A stretch of 64,000 bases of DNA, from assembly GCF_900143685.1 (NCBI RefSeq), contig NZ_LT671675.1, positions 657,111-721,110 on the forward strand. Direction: 5' to 3'. The translations under genes and the position numbers were made by a program. Position 1 is the first letter of the stretch. The number at the start of each line of letters is the position of its first letter. Positions 12,426-63,110 of the stretch are shown here, piece by piece. Under the pieces are notes generated by a model. The model was not told the origin of the DNA. It made no database searches and worked only from the letters and a program-made list of their open reading frames with translations. This stretch comes from Parolsenella massiliensis (GTDB lineage Bacteria > Actinomycetota > Coriobacteriia > Coriobacteriales > Atopobiaceae).

Positions 12426-12449
12426 CCGCCTTCCTTGCTAGCTCATGAA

Positions 12450-12501
12450 AAGGGGGCCCATCCCGCAGCGACGAAAGATGCGTCGCCGGGATGGGCCCCT
12501 T
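12450..12501. terminator. Two-way terminator
   Basis: GGGGCCCATCCC pairs with GGGATGGGCCCC, enclosing a second stem (GCGACG/CGTCGC). It lies between the convergent EamA and 3-hydroxyacyl-CoA dehydrogenase genes. Confidence 0.75.
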
Positions 12502-12531
12502 CGCGCACGGGCGCGTCAGCGCGCCCGTGCG

Positions 12532-13470
12532 CTAGGCGCCGTAGAAGGTCTCGCCTGCATCGAGCATGGCCTTGAGCTTCGCGGCGATGGCCTTGTAGTT
12601 GTAGGGCAGCATCATCTTCTTGAACAGCGGATTGAGCAGCCCCGGCACGCCCTGGTACTGCATGACGATGTTGTAGGCGGTGTTGAGGCCCACGGTGTCA
12701 ATGACCTGGAAGGGGCCCTTGGGTGCGCCCGTTCCATGCGTCCAGGCAATGTCGATGCTCTTGGGGTCGGACACGCCGCCTGCCCACAGGTCCAGGCCCG
12801 AGAGCAGGAACGGCACGAGCATGGAGTTGAGGAGGTATCCGCTCTTCTCCTTGCGCACCGGCAGTGCGATCATGCGGATCTGGCCGGCGAACTCGACCAT
12901 CTCATCGAAGTGGGCAGGGTCGGTGAGCGACTGGCCCATGACCTCGGCCGTGTTGTTCTTCCAGATGGAGTTGGCGAAGTGCAGCGACAGGTACTTGTCG
13001 GGGCGTCCCGTGGCCTTGGCGAACTGGCTGGGCAGAAGCGTCGAGGAGTTCGTGGCGATGACGGTCTTGGCGGGAAGCACGGGCGCGAGCTTGGCGTAGA
13101 ACTCGTTCTTGGCCTTTGCCTCCTCGGCCATGGACTCGATGACGAGGTCGGCGTCGGCCACGGCGGCGGCGAGGTCGAGCTCAAGTTTGATGCCGTCGTG
13201 CGCGGCGCGGGCGCGTGCGAGGCAGGCCTGCTCATCGATGGGCTGGCCGGGCTCGGCGATGCCGCAGCACCAGTCGCCGGTGCCCGTCGCCATGTCGTGG
13301 ATGGCCCGCTCGTAGGTCCCAAGCAGGTGGTCGAGCTTGGGCTGCGTGCGCCCGATGCTGCCCTCGCTGCGAAGCCACACGGTGACGTCGAAGCCGCAGT
13401 AGGCGGCCTGGAACGCGATCTGGCTGCCCAGCACGCCGCCTCCGGCGACGACGACCTTCTTGAATGCCAT
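12532..13470 (-). CDS. 3-hydroxyacyl-CoA dehydrogenase
   Basis: A 312-residue NAD-dependent 3-hydroxyacyl-CoA dehydrogenase-type protein. Rossmann motif VVVAGGGVLGSQIAFQAAYC at residues ~6-25; VIESMAEE and NSSTLLPSQFA follow as in the family; LSLHFANSIWKNN replaces the common MHFFNPV. The C-terminal helical domain is present. It could serve in butyrate-type fermentation or fatty acid metabolism, but no thiolase or crotonase is adjacent in this window. The ATG at 13470 has AAGGAG upstream. Confidence 0.85.
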   Translation of the reverse strand: MAFKKVVVAGGGVLGSQIAFQAAYCGFDVTVWLRSEGSIGRTQPKLDHLLGTYERAIHDMATGTGDWCCGIAEPGQPIDEQACLARARAAHDGIKLELDLAAAVADADLVIESMAEEAKAKNEFYAKLAPVLPAKTVIATNSSTLLPSQFAKATGRPDKYLSLHFANSIWKNNTAEVMGQSLTDPAHFDEMVEFAGQIRMIALPVRKEKSGYLLNSMLVPFLLSGLDLWAGGVSDPKSIDIAWTHGTGAPKGPFQVIDTVGLNTAYNIVMQYQGVPGLLNPLFKKMMLPYNYKAIAAKLKAMLDAGETFYGA

Positions 13471-53086: not shown

Positions 53087-53743
53087 CTAGCCCTGGTCGC
53101 TCTTGGCCTCGTCCAGGTAACTGTAGAGCGTGTACTTGGAGATGCCGAAGTACTTGCACACCTTGGGGCCCGACTTCGTGATGAGGAAGGCGCCGGCGTC
53201 GTTGAGGTAGCGGATGGCGCGCACGCGCTCGTCCTTGCTCATGAGGGCGGCCGGCTTCCCCACGAGCGCCACGCTCTGCTCGATGAGGTCGTCGAGCAGG
53301 TCTGCGACGCTGCGAACGATGGGCTCGGGGTCGCCGGTGGGATCGTCTCCCGGGCCCGTGCCCGTCATGGCGTTCAGGGTGTCGGCGGCGGCGCTCAGCA
53401 CCGTGATGTCGTAGTTGATGCCCAGGATGCCCACGGGCACGTTCTCGGCGCTGCGGATGAAGACGGTCGAGGAGCGCAGGATGCGGCCGTCGGTCGTCTT
53501 GGTGAGGTAGGCAAGGCGGTCCGACAGCTTGTGGACCTTGCCGGCCTTCACCGCGTCGAGCACGATGTGGCTGGGGCCGTCTCCCACGGAGCGGCCGGTG
53601 ACGTGGCCGTTCTCGATGGCCACGATGGAGCGCTCGGGGTCGTCGGTCTCGAGGTCATGGACGACGACCTCGCAGTTCGAGCCAAACTGCACGGCGATGG
53701 CGTGGGCGAGTCGAGCGTAGAAGTCTGTCTGGGCGGCATCCAT
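53087..53743 (-). CDS. YheO/DauR-type PAS-HTH transcriptional regulator (1)
   Basis: A 218-residue regulator. The N-terminal YheO-type PAS domain has EVVVHDLETDDPERSIVAIE and NGHVTGRSVGDGPSH; GILGINYDITVL ends it. The C-terminal HTH is RAIRYLNDAGAFLITKSGPK and then YFGISKYTLYSYL. Members such as DauR repress catabolic genes and respond to small ligands. ATG 53743 behind GAAAGG. It is divergent from a second regulator of the same family and lies just upstream of the purine genes. Confidence 0.85.
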   Translation of the reverse strand: MDAAQTDFYARLAHAIAVQFGSNCEVVVHDLETDDPERSIVAIENGHVTGRSVGDGPSHIVLDAVKAGKVHKLSDRLAYLTKTTDGRILRSSTVFIRSAENVPVGILGINYDITVLSAAADTLNAMTGTGPGDDPTGDPEPIVRSVADLLDDLIEQSVALVGKPAALMSKDERVRAIRYLNDAGAFLITKSGPKVCKYFGISKYTLYSYLDEAKSDQG

Positions 53744-53801
53744 GTGAGACCTTTCGCGAAGCTGCGCGAATCGCTGCGTCACAGCGTTTCAGGTTGAAGG
53801 A

Positions 53802-53860
53802 TATAATCCGTTCTAGCTGCACAAACTAACACAAAGTATGGCTGACCCACAATATATAAT
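53802..53860. promoter_or_regulatory. Divergent promoter region between the two YheO-type regulators
   Basis: Two perfect TATAAT hexamers, at 53802-53807 and 53855-53860, lie on the + strand in this AT-rich gap. The second starts 35 nt before the assigned ATG of the right-hand regulator. No clear -35 hexamers. Confidence 0.45.
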
Positions 53861-53894
53861 TCAAACGGTATCCGCTGACGGAAAGAGAGAACGC

Positions 53895-54587
53895 ATGAAC
53901 GAGAAGGTCGCAGAGCTCATCCCCTTCGTGGACTTTTTGGGAGCCGCCCTGGGCTCTGCCACCGAGATTGCGCTGCATGACCTCTCGGACCCCGCGCACT
54001 CCATCGTCAAGATCGTCAACGGCCACGTCTCGGGTCGCACCGTGGGCGCCCCCGCCACCGCGTTCTCGCTCAAGATGGCCGAGCAGCTCGAGCTTAGCGA
54101 GGACTGCTTCGTGAGCGACTACGTCTCCACCACGGCCGACGGCCGCCCACTTCAGAGCTCCTCGTACTTCGTGCGTGACGCGGGCAAGATCGTGGGCATC
54201 CTGTGCGTCAACATCGACCCGCAACCCTTCCGTACGCTCGAGGACGGCATCAAGGCCTTCATGGAGGCATACCGCCACGGCGGCTCGGAGGAGTTCCGCG
54301 ACACGAACCTCGAGGCGGTGCGCAGCGCCTATAGGGCCTCGAGCGTAGAGACCCTTTCCATCGGCGGGGCCGAGACGGGCGTGGCCGAGCAGGTGCGCTC
54401 CCTTCTCGGGGCGCTCGGCAAGACGTCGAGCGAGCTTGACCAGGCCGGTCGCGTCGACGTCATCCGCAGGCTTGACGCCGCGGGGACGTTTCTCATCAAA
54501 GGCGCCGCGGCAGACGTCGCCGGCGAGCTGCATGTCTCCGTGCCGAGCGTCTACCGCTATCTGCAGAGGGTTCGCCGCGAGGGGTAG
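53895..54587 (+). CDS. YheO/DauR-type PAS-HTH transcriptional regulator (2)
   Basis: A 230-residue paralogue of the divergent gene at 53087. EIALHDLSDPAHSIVKIVNG and HVSGRTVGAPAT form the PAS domain; GILCVNIDPQPF ends it; the C-terminal HTH is RLDAAGTFLIKGAAADVAGE and then LHVSVPSVYRYLQRV. The ATG at 53895 with GAGAGAAC upstream is preferred; an ATG at 53838 lies before a TATAAT box. A terminator follows. The best guess for its targets is the downstream purine genes, as nothing else nearby is catabolic. Confidence 0.85.
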   Translation: MNEKVAELIPFVDFLGAALGSATEIALHDLSDPAHSIVKIVNGHVSGRTVGAPATAFSLKMAEQLELSEDCFVSDYVSTTADGRPLQSSSYFVRDAGKIVGILCVNIDPQPFRTLEDGIKAFMEAYRHGGSEEFRDTNLEAVRSAYRASSVETLSIGGAETGVAEQVRSLLGALGKTSSELDQAGRVDVIRRLDAAGTFLIKGAAADVAGELHVSVPSVYRYLQRVRREG

Positions 54588-56748: not shown

Positions 56749-57653
56749 CTAGGCCGTGAGGGCCTGTCTCCGGAACTCCTCCGGGGTCAGGCCCTTCAAT
56801 CTTACCTGCCTCCGGCGCGTGTTCCAGTGGACGACGTACGCCTCGAGGTCGCGCTTGAAGTCCTCGAAGCTGTCCCACTCGCAGCCCCGGTAGAACTCGT
56901 CCTTGACGTGGCCGAAGAGCTGCTCGGTGGCGGCGTTGTCGATGCAGTTGCCCTTGCGGGACATGCTCTGGGCGATGCCAGCCTCCCTGAGCCTCGCCGC
57001 GTACCGCTCGTGCTGATACTGCCAGCCCATGTCCGAGTGCATGACCGGCGACGCCCCCTCCGGGAGCCTCGCCAGGAGCTCATCCAGCATCCTAAGCTGC
57101 TGGGTCATGTCGGGCGAGGCCGAGACGTCGCTCGCCACGATCTCCTTGGTGCAGAAGTCCAGCGTGGGCGCCCAATAGGCCTTGCCGCCGGCCACCTTGA
57201 ACTCGGTGACGTCCGTGCCGAGCTTCTCCCACGGGGCGCCGGCGGCGAAGTCCCGGGCGAGCAGGTTCTCGAACGTGCTGCCCACGACTCCCCTGTACGA
57301 GCTGTACCTGTGGTAGGCGGTCTCGCGGCGTATGCCGCAGCGGATCCCCATCTCGCGCATCATCTTGAGCACCGTCTTGTCGGCGATCACGGCGCCCTCC
57401 TCCGCCCTGAGGCACATCGCGACCTGGCGGTGGCCGCAGCCGTTGGCGGTGCGGGAGAAGATCTCGGCCGCCGCCTCCCAGAGCTCCGGTCTCGTCGGCC
57501 GCGGCGGGTGCGCCAGGGCGTAGTAGTAGGTCGACCTTGCGAGCCCCGAGCACGCGAGCAGGTGCCGCAGCGAGTGCCCCTCGGCGCGCAGGGCCGCGAC
57601 CGCCTCGGCCTTCGCCCCGGTCAGAGCCCGTCCCGCTCGGCCAGGGCGCGCAA
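56749..57653 (-). CDS. IS3-family transposase OrfB (frameshift product)
   Basis: About 300 residues read in the -1 frame relative to OrfA. The integrase core has the DDE triad: TDVTEFKV (first Asp), HSDMGWQYQH (second Asp) and DNAATEQLFGHVKDE (Glu). HTH_21-like region RSTYYYALAHPP precedes it. It has no good start of its own; the slippery A7 at 57654-57660 lets ribosomes move from OrfA (KK|IARPG) to give the full OrfAB transposase. Confidence 0.9.
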
Positions 57654-58112
57654 TTTTTTTAGGTAGGCGACCTCGGCCTCGAGCCTGCGGCAGCGTTCCT
57701 CGAGCTCCTCCTCGCGGCTCCTCGGCCCGGGCCCCGCGGCCTTCGGCCTGCCCCTGGGCTTCGGGCGCAGCGCCTCCGCGCCGCCCTCCCGGTAGAGCCT
57801 GCACCAGCGGTCGAGGGGAGACTTCGACATGATGCCGAACCTGGCCATCGCCGCCGGCCTTGGCATCCCGCGGTCGACGACGGCCGAGGCGGCGGCGACC
57901 CTCTGCTCGTACGTGTACCTGGCCTGCTTCCCGTCCATGCGCAGCAGCACCTCGCTCCCGAACGCGCGGTATATCTCCTGCCATTTTCTCACGGCGGCAA
58001 TCGGGGCCGGGAGGCTGGCGGCGACCGACCTGCAGCCCAGTCCAGAGGAGAAGAGCTCCGCGGCCCTCCTCCTCACCCCGACGTCGTATCTAAACCTGAG
58101 GTCCGCCCGCAT
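57621..58112 (-). CDS. IS3-family transposase OrfA
   Basis: A 163-residue DNA-binding part of the transposase. Two HTH segments (RRAAELFSSGLGCRSVAASL; MARFGIMSKSPLDRWCRLYR) are followed by a basic linker and a leucine-zipper-like end (EELEERCRRLEAEVAYLKKL). The ATG at 58112 follows GGGAGG inside the element; the frame is open beyond the IS end but that start would lie in flanking DNA. Confidence 0.88.
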   Translation of the reverse strand: MRADLRFRYDVGVRRRAAELFSSGLGCRSVAASLPAPIAAVRKWQEIYRAFGSEVLLRMDGKQARYTYEQRVAAASAVVDRGMPRPAAMARFGIMSKSPLDRWCRLYREGGAEALRPKPRGRPKAAGPGPRSREEELEERCRRLEAEVAYLKKLRALAERDGL

Positions 58113-58550: not shown

Positions 58551-59921
58551 ATGCTAAGGGAGCACATGCTTATTGTCGGTAATGGTCGCGTCATCACCCG
58601 CGATGACGAGAAGCCCTACCTCGAGCACGGCGCGGTTGCCATCTACGGAGACACCATCGTTGCGGTGGGAGACGAGGCCGAGCTCAAGGCCGCCAACCCC
58701 GGCTACGAGTACGTCGACGCCCACGGCGGCGTCATCATGCCGGGCCTCGTGAACTGCCACACCCACATCTACTCGGGCCTGGCCCGCGGCCTGGCAATCG
58801 ATGGCTGCAACCCCACGAACTTCCTCGAGAACCTCGAGCAGCAGTGGTGGAAGATCGACGACAACCTCACGCTCGACGGCACGCGCGCCAGCGCCTACGC
58901 CACGATCCTCGACTCGCTTCGTGACGGCGTCACCACGATCTTCGACCACCACGCGAGCTTCTGCGAGATTCCCGGCTCCCTGTTCGCCATCAAGGACGTC
59001 GCCAAGGAGCTCGGCATGCGCTCCTGCCTGTGCTACGAGGTCTCCGACCGCCGCGGCCAGGAGAAGTGCGACCAGTCGATCGCCGAGAACGCCGAGTTCG
59101 CCCAGTGGGCCCACGACGCGCGCGAGAAGGACAACGACACGATGATCGCCGCCATGTTCGGCGGCCACGCCACGTTCACCCTCTCCGACGAGACGATGGA
59201 CAAGATGGCCGAGGCCAACAACGGCCTCACGGGCTTCCACATCCACGTCTGCGAGGGCATGAACGACGTGTGGGACTCCCGTAAGAACCGCGGCGGCATC
59301 CCGCCCGTGGAGCGCCTGCTGCAGCACAACCTGCTTGGCCCCGACACCATGCTCGGCCACTGCATCCACGTGACGCCCGCCGAGATGGACATCATCAAGG
59401 ACTCCGGCACCTGGCTCGTCAACAACCCCGAGTCCAACATGGGCAACGCCGTGGGCTGCGCCCCGGTCCTGGAGTTCATGCGCCGCGGCATCCCAGTGTG
59501 CATGGGCACGGACGCCTACACCCATGACATGCTCGAGAGCCTCAAGGTCTTCCTCGTCATCCAGCGCCACAACGCCGCCATGCCCAACGTGGGCTGGGGC
59601 GAGGCCATGACGATGCTGTTCAAGAACAACTACGCGATGGCCTCCAAGTACTTCGGCCGCACGTTCGGCAAGCTCGCCCCCGGCGCCGCCGCAGACGTCA
59701 TCGTCATGGACTACCCGGTGTTCACGCCCTTCTCCGGCGACAACATCGACGGCCACATGCTGTTCGGCATGATGGGCAAGAACTGCCGCACCACGATCGT
59801 CAACGGCCGTGTCCTCTACAAGGACCGCGAGTTCGTTGCCTTCGACGAGGAGCGCATCAACGCCTGGACGCTCGAGCAGTCCAAGAAGCTGTGGGGCACG
59901 CTGAACAACCGCAGCTACTAA
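58551..59921 (+). CDS. ssnA: Putative aminohydrolase SsnA
   Basis: A 456-residue amidohydrolase-fold protein of the SsnA family. Zinc motif NCHTHIYSG (His70, His72), HATFTLSDE, FHIHVCEGMND, GHCIHVTP and VCMGTDAYTHDM (Asp). SsnA is found in purine/urate catabolic clusters with YgfK and molybdenum hydroxylases, and probably deaminates or opens a purine-derived ring; its exact reaction is not settled by sequence. Two tandem ribosome-site/start pairs exist: AAGGGAGCACC-ATG (58551) and AAGGGAGCAC-ATG (58566). The second matches the family N-terminus (MLIVGNG). Confidence 0.9.
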   Translation: MLREHMLIVGNGRVITRDDEKPYLEHGAVAIYGDTIVAVGDEAELKAANPGYEYVDAHGGVIMPGLVNCHTHIYSGLARGLAIDGCNPTNFLENLEQQWWKIDDNLTLDGTRASAYATILDSLRDGVTTIFDHHASFCEIPGSLFAIKDVAKELGMRSCLCYEVSDRRGQEKCDQSIAENAEFAQWAHDAREKDNDTMIAAMFGGHATFTLSDETMDKMAEANNGLTGFHIHVCEGMNDVWDSRKNRGGIPPVERLLQHNLLGPDTMLGHCIHVTPAEMDIIKDSGTWLVNNPESNMGNAVGCAPVLEFMRRGIPVCMGTDAYTHDMLESLKVFLVIQRHNAAMPNVGWGEAMTMLFKNNYAMASKYFGRTFGKLAPGAAADVIVMDYPVFTPFSGDNIDGHMLFGMMGKNCRTTIVNGRVLYKDREFVAFDEERINAWTLEQSKKLWGTLNNRSY

Positions 59922-59930
59922 TCGGTATCC

Positions 59931-60105
59931 CGGGGACGCGCGCGTCCCCGCAGGCGCCGGCCGGAACCAGTTCCCAGCCGGCGCCCACCCGCGTCCGGGC
60001 CGGGGAGCCCGGGCGCGGCAGACGGCCTCCGCGGGGCCGTCGCGCGAAGGGCGCCCTGCCTTTCGCGTAACACATCTCGCCCTCGTCGCGCGGTCTCGAC
60101 GGGGC
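59931..60105 (+). ncRNA. Six-hairpin array between ssnA and ygfK
   Basis: Six successive stem-loops with almost no unpaired spacer. CGGGGACGCG/CGCGTCCCCG (59931-59950, perfect palindrome); GGCGCCGGC/GCCGGCGCC with inner GGAA/TTCC (59953-59985); GCGTCCGGGC/GCCCGGGCGC (59991-60016); GACGGCC/GGCCGTC (60021-60041); CGCGAAGGGC/GCCTTTCGCG (60043-60067); CGTCG/CGACG (60084-60101, with flanking CC/GG). The ygfK ribosome site follows at ~60106. It may stabilise or cut the polycistronic mRNA, control ygfK translation or be an independent RNA. Confidence 0.5.
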
Positions 60106-60122
60106 AGGAGAGGAGCTCAGAC

Positions 60123-63110
60123 ATGAGCGACATCATGAGGCCGATCCCGTTCGCACAGATGATGGACTGGATCCTCACCGAGCACGCCAACCTCGGCAGC
60201 GTCTTCGGCGTGCGCAAGATCGTGCGCCACGAGGGCGACGCCGACCCCATCTTCAACGAGAAGATCGAGTCGCCGTTCGGCCCGGCCGCCGGCCCCAACA
60301 GCCAGCTCGCGCAGAACATCGTTGCCTCCTACGTGGCGGGCTCTCGCTTCTTCGAGGTCAAGACCGTGCAGGTCATGGACGGCGCCGAGCTGTCCGCGTG
60401 CGTCAACAAGCCCTGCATCGTGGCCGAGGACGAGTGCTACAACTGCGAGTGGTCCACCGAGCTCGAGGTTCCGCAGGCGCTCAACGAGTACGTCAAGGCC
60501 TGGTGGGCCTGCAAGCTGCTGTCCCGCGAGCTCGGCCTGGGCGCGGCTGACGGATTCGTCTTCAACATGAGCGTGGGATATGACCTCGAGGGCATCAAGA
60601 GCGCCAAGGTCGACAACTACATCGAGAGCATGAAGGACGCGAGCAACACGGCCGTGTGGGCCGAGTGCCGCGACTGGGCGCTTGCCAACCTCGACCGCTT
60701 CGAGCACGTCGACGCCGACTTCGTGAACTCCGTGAGCCCGCACGTCTCCACGTCGGTCACCGAGTCCACGCTCCACGGCTGCCCGCCCGCAGAGATCGAG
60801 CGCATCGCCACCTACCTCATCACCGAGAAGGGCCTCAACACCTACATCAAGTGCAACCCGACGCTGCTCGGCTACGAGTACGCGCGCACGCGCCTGAACG
60901 AGCTGGGCTTCGACTACATCGCCTTCGATGACAAGCACTTCGTCGAGGACCTGCAGTGGGAGGACGCCGTTCCCATGATGCGTCGCCTCATCGAGCTGGC
61001 CGAGAGCCGCGGCCTGGCCTTTGGTGTCAAGCTCACGAATACGTTCCCCGTCGACGTCACGCGTGGCGAGCTGCCGAGCGAGGAGATGTACATGTCCGGC
61101 CGCTCGCTGTTCCCGCTGACGGTCGAGGTCGCCCGCCGCATCTCCGCCGAGTTCGACGGCAAGCTGCGCATCAGCTACTCCGGCGGCGCCGACGCCCGCA
61201 ACATCCACGACCTGTACGCCGCGGGCATCTGGCCCATCACCATGGCCACCACGGTCCTCAAGCCCGGTGGCTACGAGCGCTTCAGCCAGATTGCCGGCAT
61301 CCTTGCGGGCATGGAGCGCCGCGAGGACGTCGACGTCGAGGCCGTCACCGCGCTGGGCGAGAAGGCCACGGCCAGCAAGCTCTACCACAAGCCCATCAAG
61401 CCGGCCAAGCCGCACAAGGTGAGCGCGCCGCTGCCGCTCACGAGCTGCTTCACGGCCCCGTGCCGCTCCGGCTGCCCCATCCAGCAGGACATCCCGGCCT
61501 ACCTGCACGCCGTTGACGAGGGCAACCTCGCCGAGGCTCTGCGCATCATCGTGAGCCGCAACGCCCTGCCCCACATCACCGGCAACCTCTGCCCGCACCC
61601 CTGCGGCGCCAAGTGCGAGCGCGCCTTCTACGAGGCCGAGGGCGCCCAGATCCGCGCCAGCAAGCTCACGGCCGCCCGTGGTGGCTTCGACGAGGTCCTC
61701 GCCGAGCTCAAGGCCGCCAAGCCCGCCGGCACCTCCGACAAGAAGGTTGCCGTCATCGGCGGCGGCCCGGCCGGCCTTGCCACGGCGTTCTTCCTGACGC
61801 GCGCCGGCGCCGACGTCACCATCATCGAGCGCACCAACAGGCTCGGCGGCGTCGCCCGTCACGTCATCCCCGAGTTCCGCATCTCCCACAACGACATCGA
61901 CGCCGACGAGCAGCTGTGCCTGGCCTTCGGCGCCAAGGTCGAGCTTGGCCGCGAGGTCAAGAGCGTCGAGGAGCTCAAGGCCGAGGGCTACACGGACGTC
62001 GTCGTCTGCGTGGGCGCCTGGGCCCCGGGCCACGTGGGCCTCGAGTACGGCGAGGAGCACGACGTCCTGGAGTTCCTGCGCGCCGCCAAGGCCGGAGAGG
62101 ACCTCTCCGCGCTTGGGACCGACATCGTGATCGTGGGCGCCGGCAACACCGCCATGGACGCCGCGCGCGTCGCCAAGCGCCTGCCGGGCGTCGAGAACGT
62201 GCGCATCGTCTACCGCCGCACGAAGCGCTTCATGCCCGCCGACGAGGACGAGCTGCAGGAGGCCCTGGCCGACGGCGTCGAGTTCTGCGAGCTGCTCGCG
62301 CCCAGGGGCGTCAGGTGCGGCAAGCTCACCTGCGATGTCATGAAGCTCGGCGAGGCCGACGAGTCCGGTCGCCAGCGCCCCGTCGCTACCGGCGAGACCG
62401 TCGAGGTCCCGGCCACGGCCGTCATCTGCGCCGTGGGCGAGCACATCGAGGGTGAGGTCTTCGCCTCCGCCGGCGTCGAGGTCGACCGCAAGGGCCGCCC
62501 GGCCGGCACCGCCACGGGTGTGGACGGCGTCTGGGCTGCCGGCGACTGCCGCCGTGGCCCCGCGACGTTCGTCGAGGCCATCGCCGACGCGCAGGCCGTG
62601 GCCCGCGACATGCTCGGCGCCGACTTCAACGCCTACGCCGAGGCCAACGCCGCCGCCTCCGTCGAGCAGTGCTACGAGCGCAAGGGCACCCTCTCCACCG
62701 AGGCCGCCCCGATCAACAACAGCCGCTGCCTGGGCTGCGCCAAGGTCTGCGAGGCCTGCTGCGACGTCTGCCCCAACCGCGCCAACGTCGCCATCGAGGT
62801 GCCGGGCCTGGCCCAGCACCAGGTGGTCCACGTGGACGGCATGTGCAACGAGTGCGGCAACTGCGCCGTCTTCTGCCCGTGGGAGGGCCGCCCGTTCAAG
62901 GACAAGCTCACCCTGTTCTGGAGCGCCGAGGACATGGGCGCCTCCGAGAACCGCGGCTTCCTGCCGCAGGCCGACGGCTCGTTCCTCGTCCGCCTTGCCA
63001 CGGGCACGGGCGCCTATGACGTCGACGACGCCAACTGCGGCCTGCCCGAGGACGTCCGCCTCACGATCAAGGCCGTGCGCGACTCCTACGGCTACCTGCT
63101 CGCCAAGTAG
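60123..63110 (+). CDS. ygfK: YgfK-type flavin/iron-sulfur oxidoreductase (putative selenate reductase subunit)
   Basis: A 995-residue YgfK. The N-terminal ~430 residues are a dihydropyrimidine-dehydrogenase-like barrel (SGGADARNIHDLYA; TVLKPGGYERF). Then a GltD-like module: cysteine cluster CFTAPCRSGCP from residue 442 and CPHPCGAKCE, FAD site GGGPAG (546-551), NAD(P)H site GAGNTA (672-677). The C-terminus carries two ferredoxin-like clusters from residue 869 (CLGCAKVCEACCDVCP; CNECGNCAVFCP). It likely carries electrons between NAD(P)H, ferredoxin and a purine intermediate in anaerobic purine breakdown. The selenate reductase name comes from E. coli work and may not be the real role. Confidence 0.9.
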   Translation: MSDIMRPIPFAQMMDWILTEHANLGSVFGVRKIVRHEGDADPIFNEKIESPFGPAAGPNSQLAQNIVASYVAGSRFFEVKTVQVMDGAELSACVNKPCIVAEDECYNCEWSTELEVPQALNEYVKAWWACKLLSRELGLGAADGFVFNMSVGYDLEGIKSAKVDNYIESMKDASNTAVWAECRDWALANLDRFEHVDADFVNSVSPHVSTSVTESTLHGCPPAEIERIATYLITEKGLNTYIKCNPTLLGYEYARTRLNELGFDYIAFDDKHFVEDLQWEDAVPMMRRLIELAESRGLAFGVKLTNTFPVDVTRGELPSEEMYMSGRSLFPLTVEVARRISAEFDGKLRISYSGGADARNIHDLYAAGIWPITMATTVLKPGGYERFSQIAGILAGMERREDVDVEAVTALGEKATASKLYHKPIKPAKPHKVSAPLPLTSCFTAPCRSGCPIQQDIPAYLHAVDEGNLAEALRIIVSRNALPHITGNLCPHPCGAKCERAFYEAEGAQIRASKLTAARGGFDEVLAELKAAKPAGTSDKKVAVIGGGPAGLATAFFLTRAGADVTIIERTNRLGGVARHVIPEFRISHNDIDADEQLCLAFGAKVELGREVKSVEELKAEGYTDVVVCVGAWAPGHVGLEYGEEHDVLEFLRAAKAGEDLSALGTDIVIVGAGNTAMDAARVAKRLPGVENVRIVYRRTKRFMPADEDELQEALADGVEFCELLAPRGVRCGKLTCDVMKLGEADESGRQRPVATGETVEVPATAVICAVGEHIEGEVFASAGVEVDRKGRPAGTATGVDGVWAAGDCRRGPATFVEAIADAQAVARDMLGADFNAYAEANAAASVEQCYERKGTLSTEAAPINNSRCLGCAKVCEACCDVCPNRANVAIEVPGLAQHQVVHVDGMCNECGNCAVFCPWEGRPFKDKLTLFWSAEDMGASENRGFLPQADGSFLVRLATGTGAYDVDDANCGLPEDVRLTIKAVRDSYGYLLAK

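Follow-up and report, generated by a model that had tools for sequence, protein, structure and literature searches.

Three described systems are close to the RNA structure reported here. The first comprises cis-regulatory leader RNAs that contain loop-loop or H-type pseudoknots, compact folds with conserved loops upstream of a metabolic gene's ribosome-binding site, and the spacer between the genes ssnA and ygfK resembles them in all these respects. It differs from them in being intercistronic rather than at the start of an operon, in occurring with one gene only, and in having no known ligand or Rfam family. The stem-loops of selective RNA processing and stabilisation are likewise stable hairpins between genes of the same operon whose expression may have to be unequal. 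Such processing and stabilising stem-loops are usually generic stems, whereas two of the hairpins in this spacer (H4 and H6) have invariant and mutually complementary loops. The third system, REP/REPIN-like palindromes, forms similar-looking hairpins and is found in the same spacer of Olsenella relatives, but the element described here is single-copy in its own genome and conserved across families.

The locus lies in a 64,000-nucleotide stretch of the Parolsenella massiliensis genome (the whole of which is called the window). Both flanking genes belong to the anaerobic urate pathway, in which the ssnA-ygfK steps were elucidated recently (PMC12507026). Urate is reduced to yanthine, YgfK dearomatises the yanthine and SsnA next opens the ring (PMC12507026). 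The product of ssnA matches the NCBIfam model NF005540 (putative aminohydrolase SsnA) with 615.8 bits (cut-off 444), and that of ygfK matches TIGR03315 (putative selenate reductase subunit YgfK) with 1277 bits (cut-off 835). The annotated gene order in Collinsella is permease, ssnA, ygfK, 4Fe-4S protein and selenium-dependent xanthine dehydrogenase. In the window the junction is composed as follows:

58551..59921, + strand: ssnA, aminohydrolase of the reductive urate pathway, upstream of the spacer (NCBIfam NF005540)
59922..60122, + strand: structured ssnA-ygfK intercistronic spacer (78% GC; fold z -4.28; top stability in 64 kb)
60107..60113, + strand: Shine-Dalgarno-like GGAGAGG of ygfK, read from the sequence
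60123..63110, + strand: ygfK, flavin/Fe-S reductase of the reductive urate pathway, downstream of the spacer (NCBIfam TIGR03315)

The ssnA stop at 59921 and the ygfK ATG at 60123 leave a spacer of 201 nt, the length given by an earlier sequence-only reading of this DNA. Upstream of the pair, an IS3-family transposase gene (56749-57984, minus strand) sits between a guanine-deaminase-like gene and ssnA, and it possibly separates these two genes from a shared promoter.

The best explanation of the spacer, judged from sequence comparisons, is that it holds a new RNA element which acts in cis, in the leader of ygfK within the urate-reduction operons of Coriobacteriales, and which probably tunes YgfK synthesis. 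The probability of this reading is put at roughly 55%. Anaerobic urate breakdown by gut bacteria is relevant to hyperuricaemia and gout, and the conserved RNA at this fixed site ahead of ygfK would be a directly testable control point in Collinsella and Olsenella relatives.

The minimum-energy fold of the spacer (RNAfold) consists of six hairpins in a row, H1-H6, which agrees with the six back-to-back stem-loops of the sequence-only reading. The absence of a terminator T-run, claimed in the same place, also held when the spacer sequence was read directly: no T-run follows any of the six hairpins. An intrinsic terminator was ruled out, these being GC hairpins without a T-run. The hairpins and the two loop strands proposed to pair are:

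59931..59950, + strand: H1, hairpin directly after the ssnA stop (structure retained, sequence altered in the sister species)
59953..59985, + strand: H2, hairpin (long stem of different sequence in the sister species)
59989..60018, + strand: H3, 12-bp hairpin (pairing retained in the sister species)
60021..60041, + strand: H4, conserved hairpin (stem GACGGCC/GGCCGTC; invariant loop TCCGCGG at 60028-60034)
60029..60033, + strand: CCGCG in the H4 loop, proposed 5' kissing strand (complementary to 60089-60093 in 22/22 distinct sequences)
60042..60068, + strand: H5, optional hairpin between H4 and H6 (a stem is here in some relatives too)
60081..60104, + strand: H6, conserved hairpin core (stem CCTCGTCG/CGACGGGG; invariant loop CGCGGTCT at 60089-60096)
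60089..60093, + strand: CGCGG in the H6 loop, proposed 3' kissing strand (complementary to 60029-60033)

The predicted folding energy of -127.3 kcal/mol compares with a dinucleotide-shuffle mean of -106.4 (sd 4.9; z -4.28). None of 200 shuffles was as stable, so the excess stability survives the shuffle check proposed for it; the sister-species spacer has a folding z of -4.42. As a baseline, 201-nt windows were folded across the 64-kb stretch on both strands, and none of the 2552 matched the stability of the spacer. Relative to the GC trend of these windows the spacer lies about 2.7 sd low, so composition accounts for part of its stability. A few other sites are more extreme for their GC, for example a convergent-gene region near 12.4 kb. 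Very stable hairpins lie there between two convergent genes (12445-12540; z of a 250-nt fold -5.5), probably a bidirectional terminator with a very short T-run.

The conserved unit comprises only two of the six hairpins, H4 and H6. The sister species (G001) keeps all six, and its H1-H3 sequence is altered with compensatory changes; H3 differs by a double change (G-C to C-G) and by a U.G to U-A change, with its pairing intact. H1-H3 and H5 form stems in the sister species, and their sequence is not traceable in other relatives. Across genera other stems stand in place of H1-H3, H4 and H6 remain recognisable by sequence, and H5 is absent from the Olsenella/Thermophilibacter group.

The version found in the window's genus, near genera, the Olsenella/Thermophilibacter group and Collinsella is here called type C. 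In all 22 distinct type C sequences, which come from two families, the H4 loop UCCGCGG and the H6 loop CGCGGUCU are invariant. The stems carry two-sided changes in 10 pairs (38 cells), and in the H6 stem 7 of the 8 pairs show two-sided changes among relatives. The covariation score of the alignment is 0.270 against 0.094 in shuffles, and on all five measures none of 500 shuffles scored as high; slid registers of the alignment gave at most 0.069. Having been fitted to a model with the same structure, the alignment leans towards it, but an unfitted MAFFT alignment of 17 sequences gave the same result. A lack of conservation in related genomes, which would have told against the sequence-only reading, did not occur. 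Type C pairs include G.U 14 times and A.C 5 times, an excess which favours an RNA read from the + strand. The CCGCG/CGCGG helix itself is unvarying in type C and so shows no covariation, and 5-bp matches between loops are not rare at such GC; the complementarity of the two loops suggests that they form a kissing interaction.

SsnA was sought in 140 genomes of the family, and about 60 of the downstream spacers were read. Covariance models were then run on 399 genomes of the order and 400 of the class, with 80 named loci added. Model R1 found matches in 43 of the 399 order genomes, in two families and exactly one per genome, and all 30 of those with loci fetched lie between ssnA and ygfK. Model R2 gave 15 strong matches, all at ssnA-ygfK by coordinates. 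One weak R2 match (G019), across the beginning of a HisZ-like reading frame, was taken as chance. The element is classed as a cis-acting ygfK leader because it has a fixed site upstream of one gene and one copy per genome.

In its own genome R1 finds one significant copy (next-best E about 0.9) and there is no further exact copy of the H4 core, which ruled out a dispersed repeat of REP/REPIN type. A second DNA match of the spacer (L002) was set aside, being short and in apparent coding sequence. With one mismatch allowed, the H6 loop core occurs at 51 places in this genome against 62 for a reversed-pattern control, so the short string alone is uninformative.

No Rfam 15 family matched in the 64-kb window at the gathering threshold, and at permissive thresholds the spacer and 13 loci related to it gave chance-level matches only. 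Literature searches on ygfK or ssnA with a riboswitch or RNA motif turned up no RNA element in the urate pathway. The main text of a large human-microbiome RNA survey (PMC8040213) does not mention ygfK; a prior listing in its supplementary tables or in Weinberg 2017 is possible. The sequence-only reading had proposed an undescribed structured RNA, and the fixed position, covarying stems, invariant loops and lack of an Rfam match all support it. Its other suggestion, an array for mRNA processing, stays a candidate, with a conserved unit made up of just two of the six hairpins.

The element is missing in several relatives with the same operon, and it is therefore regarded as a modulator that tunes the pathway, not as an essential part of it. 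Several Olsenella relatives keep the operon without it; there the spacer carries paired palindromes that look mobile, or a short stem, or measures just 57 nt. In Firmicutes with the same ssnA-ygfK order most spacers are short and without the element. In some species of Collinsella and Enorma the spacer is different and lacks the H4/H6 motif.

In seven loci (L012, L014, L016, L019, L024, L032, L033) the element is replaced by palindrome pairs such as GTGCAAAAGGGACAGTCACTTTTGCAC, mostly inverted copies with mutually complementary loops, which look like REP/REPIN-type mobile repeats. In Collinsella ihumii, Enorma phocaeensis and an uncultured Collinsella (L149, L154, L173) the spacers are GC-rich, about 204 nt long and contain inverted repeats without the H4/H6 motif; they are possibly a further architecture.

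Other genera of the window's family have, in the same place, a hairpin with CCGYGG (type A) or CCCGCG (type B) within its loop and a complementary single strand downstream. Partner strands were sought by explicit patterns, a generic hairpin-plus-complement screen being too permissive in GC-rich DNA. The type A helix CCGYGG/CCRCGG is paired in 10 of 10 distinct sequences, with U-A in 7 and C-G in 3; this switch may be a single event (the three rows are grouped, with weak support). The type A stem covaries. The type B helix CCCGC/GCGGG is paired in 7/7, a count that includes L062 and L064, overlooked by the explicit pattern used with the ygfK tree; its covariation is no better than in shuffles, the sequences being too few and too alike. 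In the ygfK tree types A and B fall on one side and type C on the other. We infer that the three types are one RNA with three architectures, a kissing loop in type C and two H-type pseudoknots in types A and B. Three versions of one loop-pairing core would be a natural series for the evolution of such folds.

The proposed mechanism is as follows. The element lies inside the ssnA-ygfK-(4Fe-4S)-xdh urate-reduction operon, before the ygfK ribosome-binding site, and its core would be H4, with a CCGCGG loop that pairs to a strand further downstream. In the window this strand would be displayed in the H6 loop, giving a kissing-loop pseudoknot through a putative loop-loop contact; in other genera it would be single-stranded, giving an H-type pseudoknot. 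The compact fold may then adjust ygfK expression relative to that of ssnA, either at translation initiation or by protecting the mRNA downstream. H1-H3, probably stems of a generic kind, would insulate or stabilise the ssnA 3' end.

General occlusion of the Shine-Dalgarno sequence was considered and rejected. H6 in full is imperfect and spans about 60075-60113, and the minimum-energy fold extends it onto part of the Shine-Dalgarno. In the window it reaches this site via UCUC/GAGA, but the UCUC is not kept in other genera; the GAGAGG of the Shine-Dalgarno is retained in element-carrying relatives. In some relatives palindromes between H6 and the Shine-Dalgarno place the element tens of bases from it. 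Since this distance varies and the window's Shine-Dalgarno pairing is not conserved, simple occlusion is not general.

The strongest competitor of a cis-acting ygfK leader is intercistronic processing and stabilisation, a tentative explanation that we consider possible and distinctly less probable. The transcript would be cut in the spacer, H1-H3 would guard the 3' end of ssnA and the H4-H6 fold the 5' end of ygfK-xdh, and unequal amounts of the two proteins would follow without any ligand. In its favour, many genera have a strong hairpin of variable sequence after the ssnA stop, and H1-H3 are retained by compensatory change in the sister species. The variable distance between element and Shine-Dalgarno also fits a role in stability. 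However, generic protective hairpins need no loops that are invariant across families, and H4 and H6 have them.

A riboswitch is unlikely. Here the H4-H6 fold would bind a metabolite of the pathway (urate, xanthine, yanthine or a cofactor) and gate ygfK expression. The invariant loops, the optional middle stem, the pseudoknot core and the site before a catabolic gene are consistent with the general form of such RNAs, and YgfK acts on yanthine made from urate (PMC12507026). Arguing against it, the element occurs with only one gene per genome, no known aptamer matches, and the partner strand differs among types A, B and C, so that no shared binding pocket is evident. The narrower proposal of a new riboswitch class, in which a kissing-loop or H-type pseudoknot would sense a reductive-urate purine or a YgfK/Xdh cofactor and control ygfK in gut Coriobacteriales, is a little more doubtful still.

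That the spacer has no specific function, being GC-rich DNA with mobile palindromes and generic hairpins, is very improbable: several Olsenella relatives do carry palindromes instead and retain the operon, and GC content does account for part of the stability, but the loops are invariant across two families, a single copy is fixed at one junction, the window's H4 and H6 are not a dispersed repeat, and the covarying stems largely refute it.

Near the urate cluster in the window there are also two divergent, mutually similar open reading frames (53087-53782, minus strand; 53838-54587, plus strand). Neither had an NCBIfam match, and they have the look of PAS/HTH regulators. A PAS-domain gene likewise lies near the urate cluster of Collinsella (L101).
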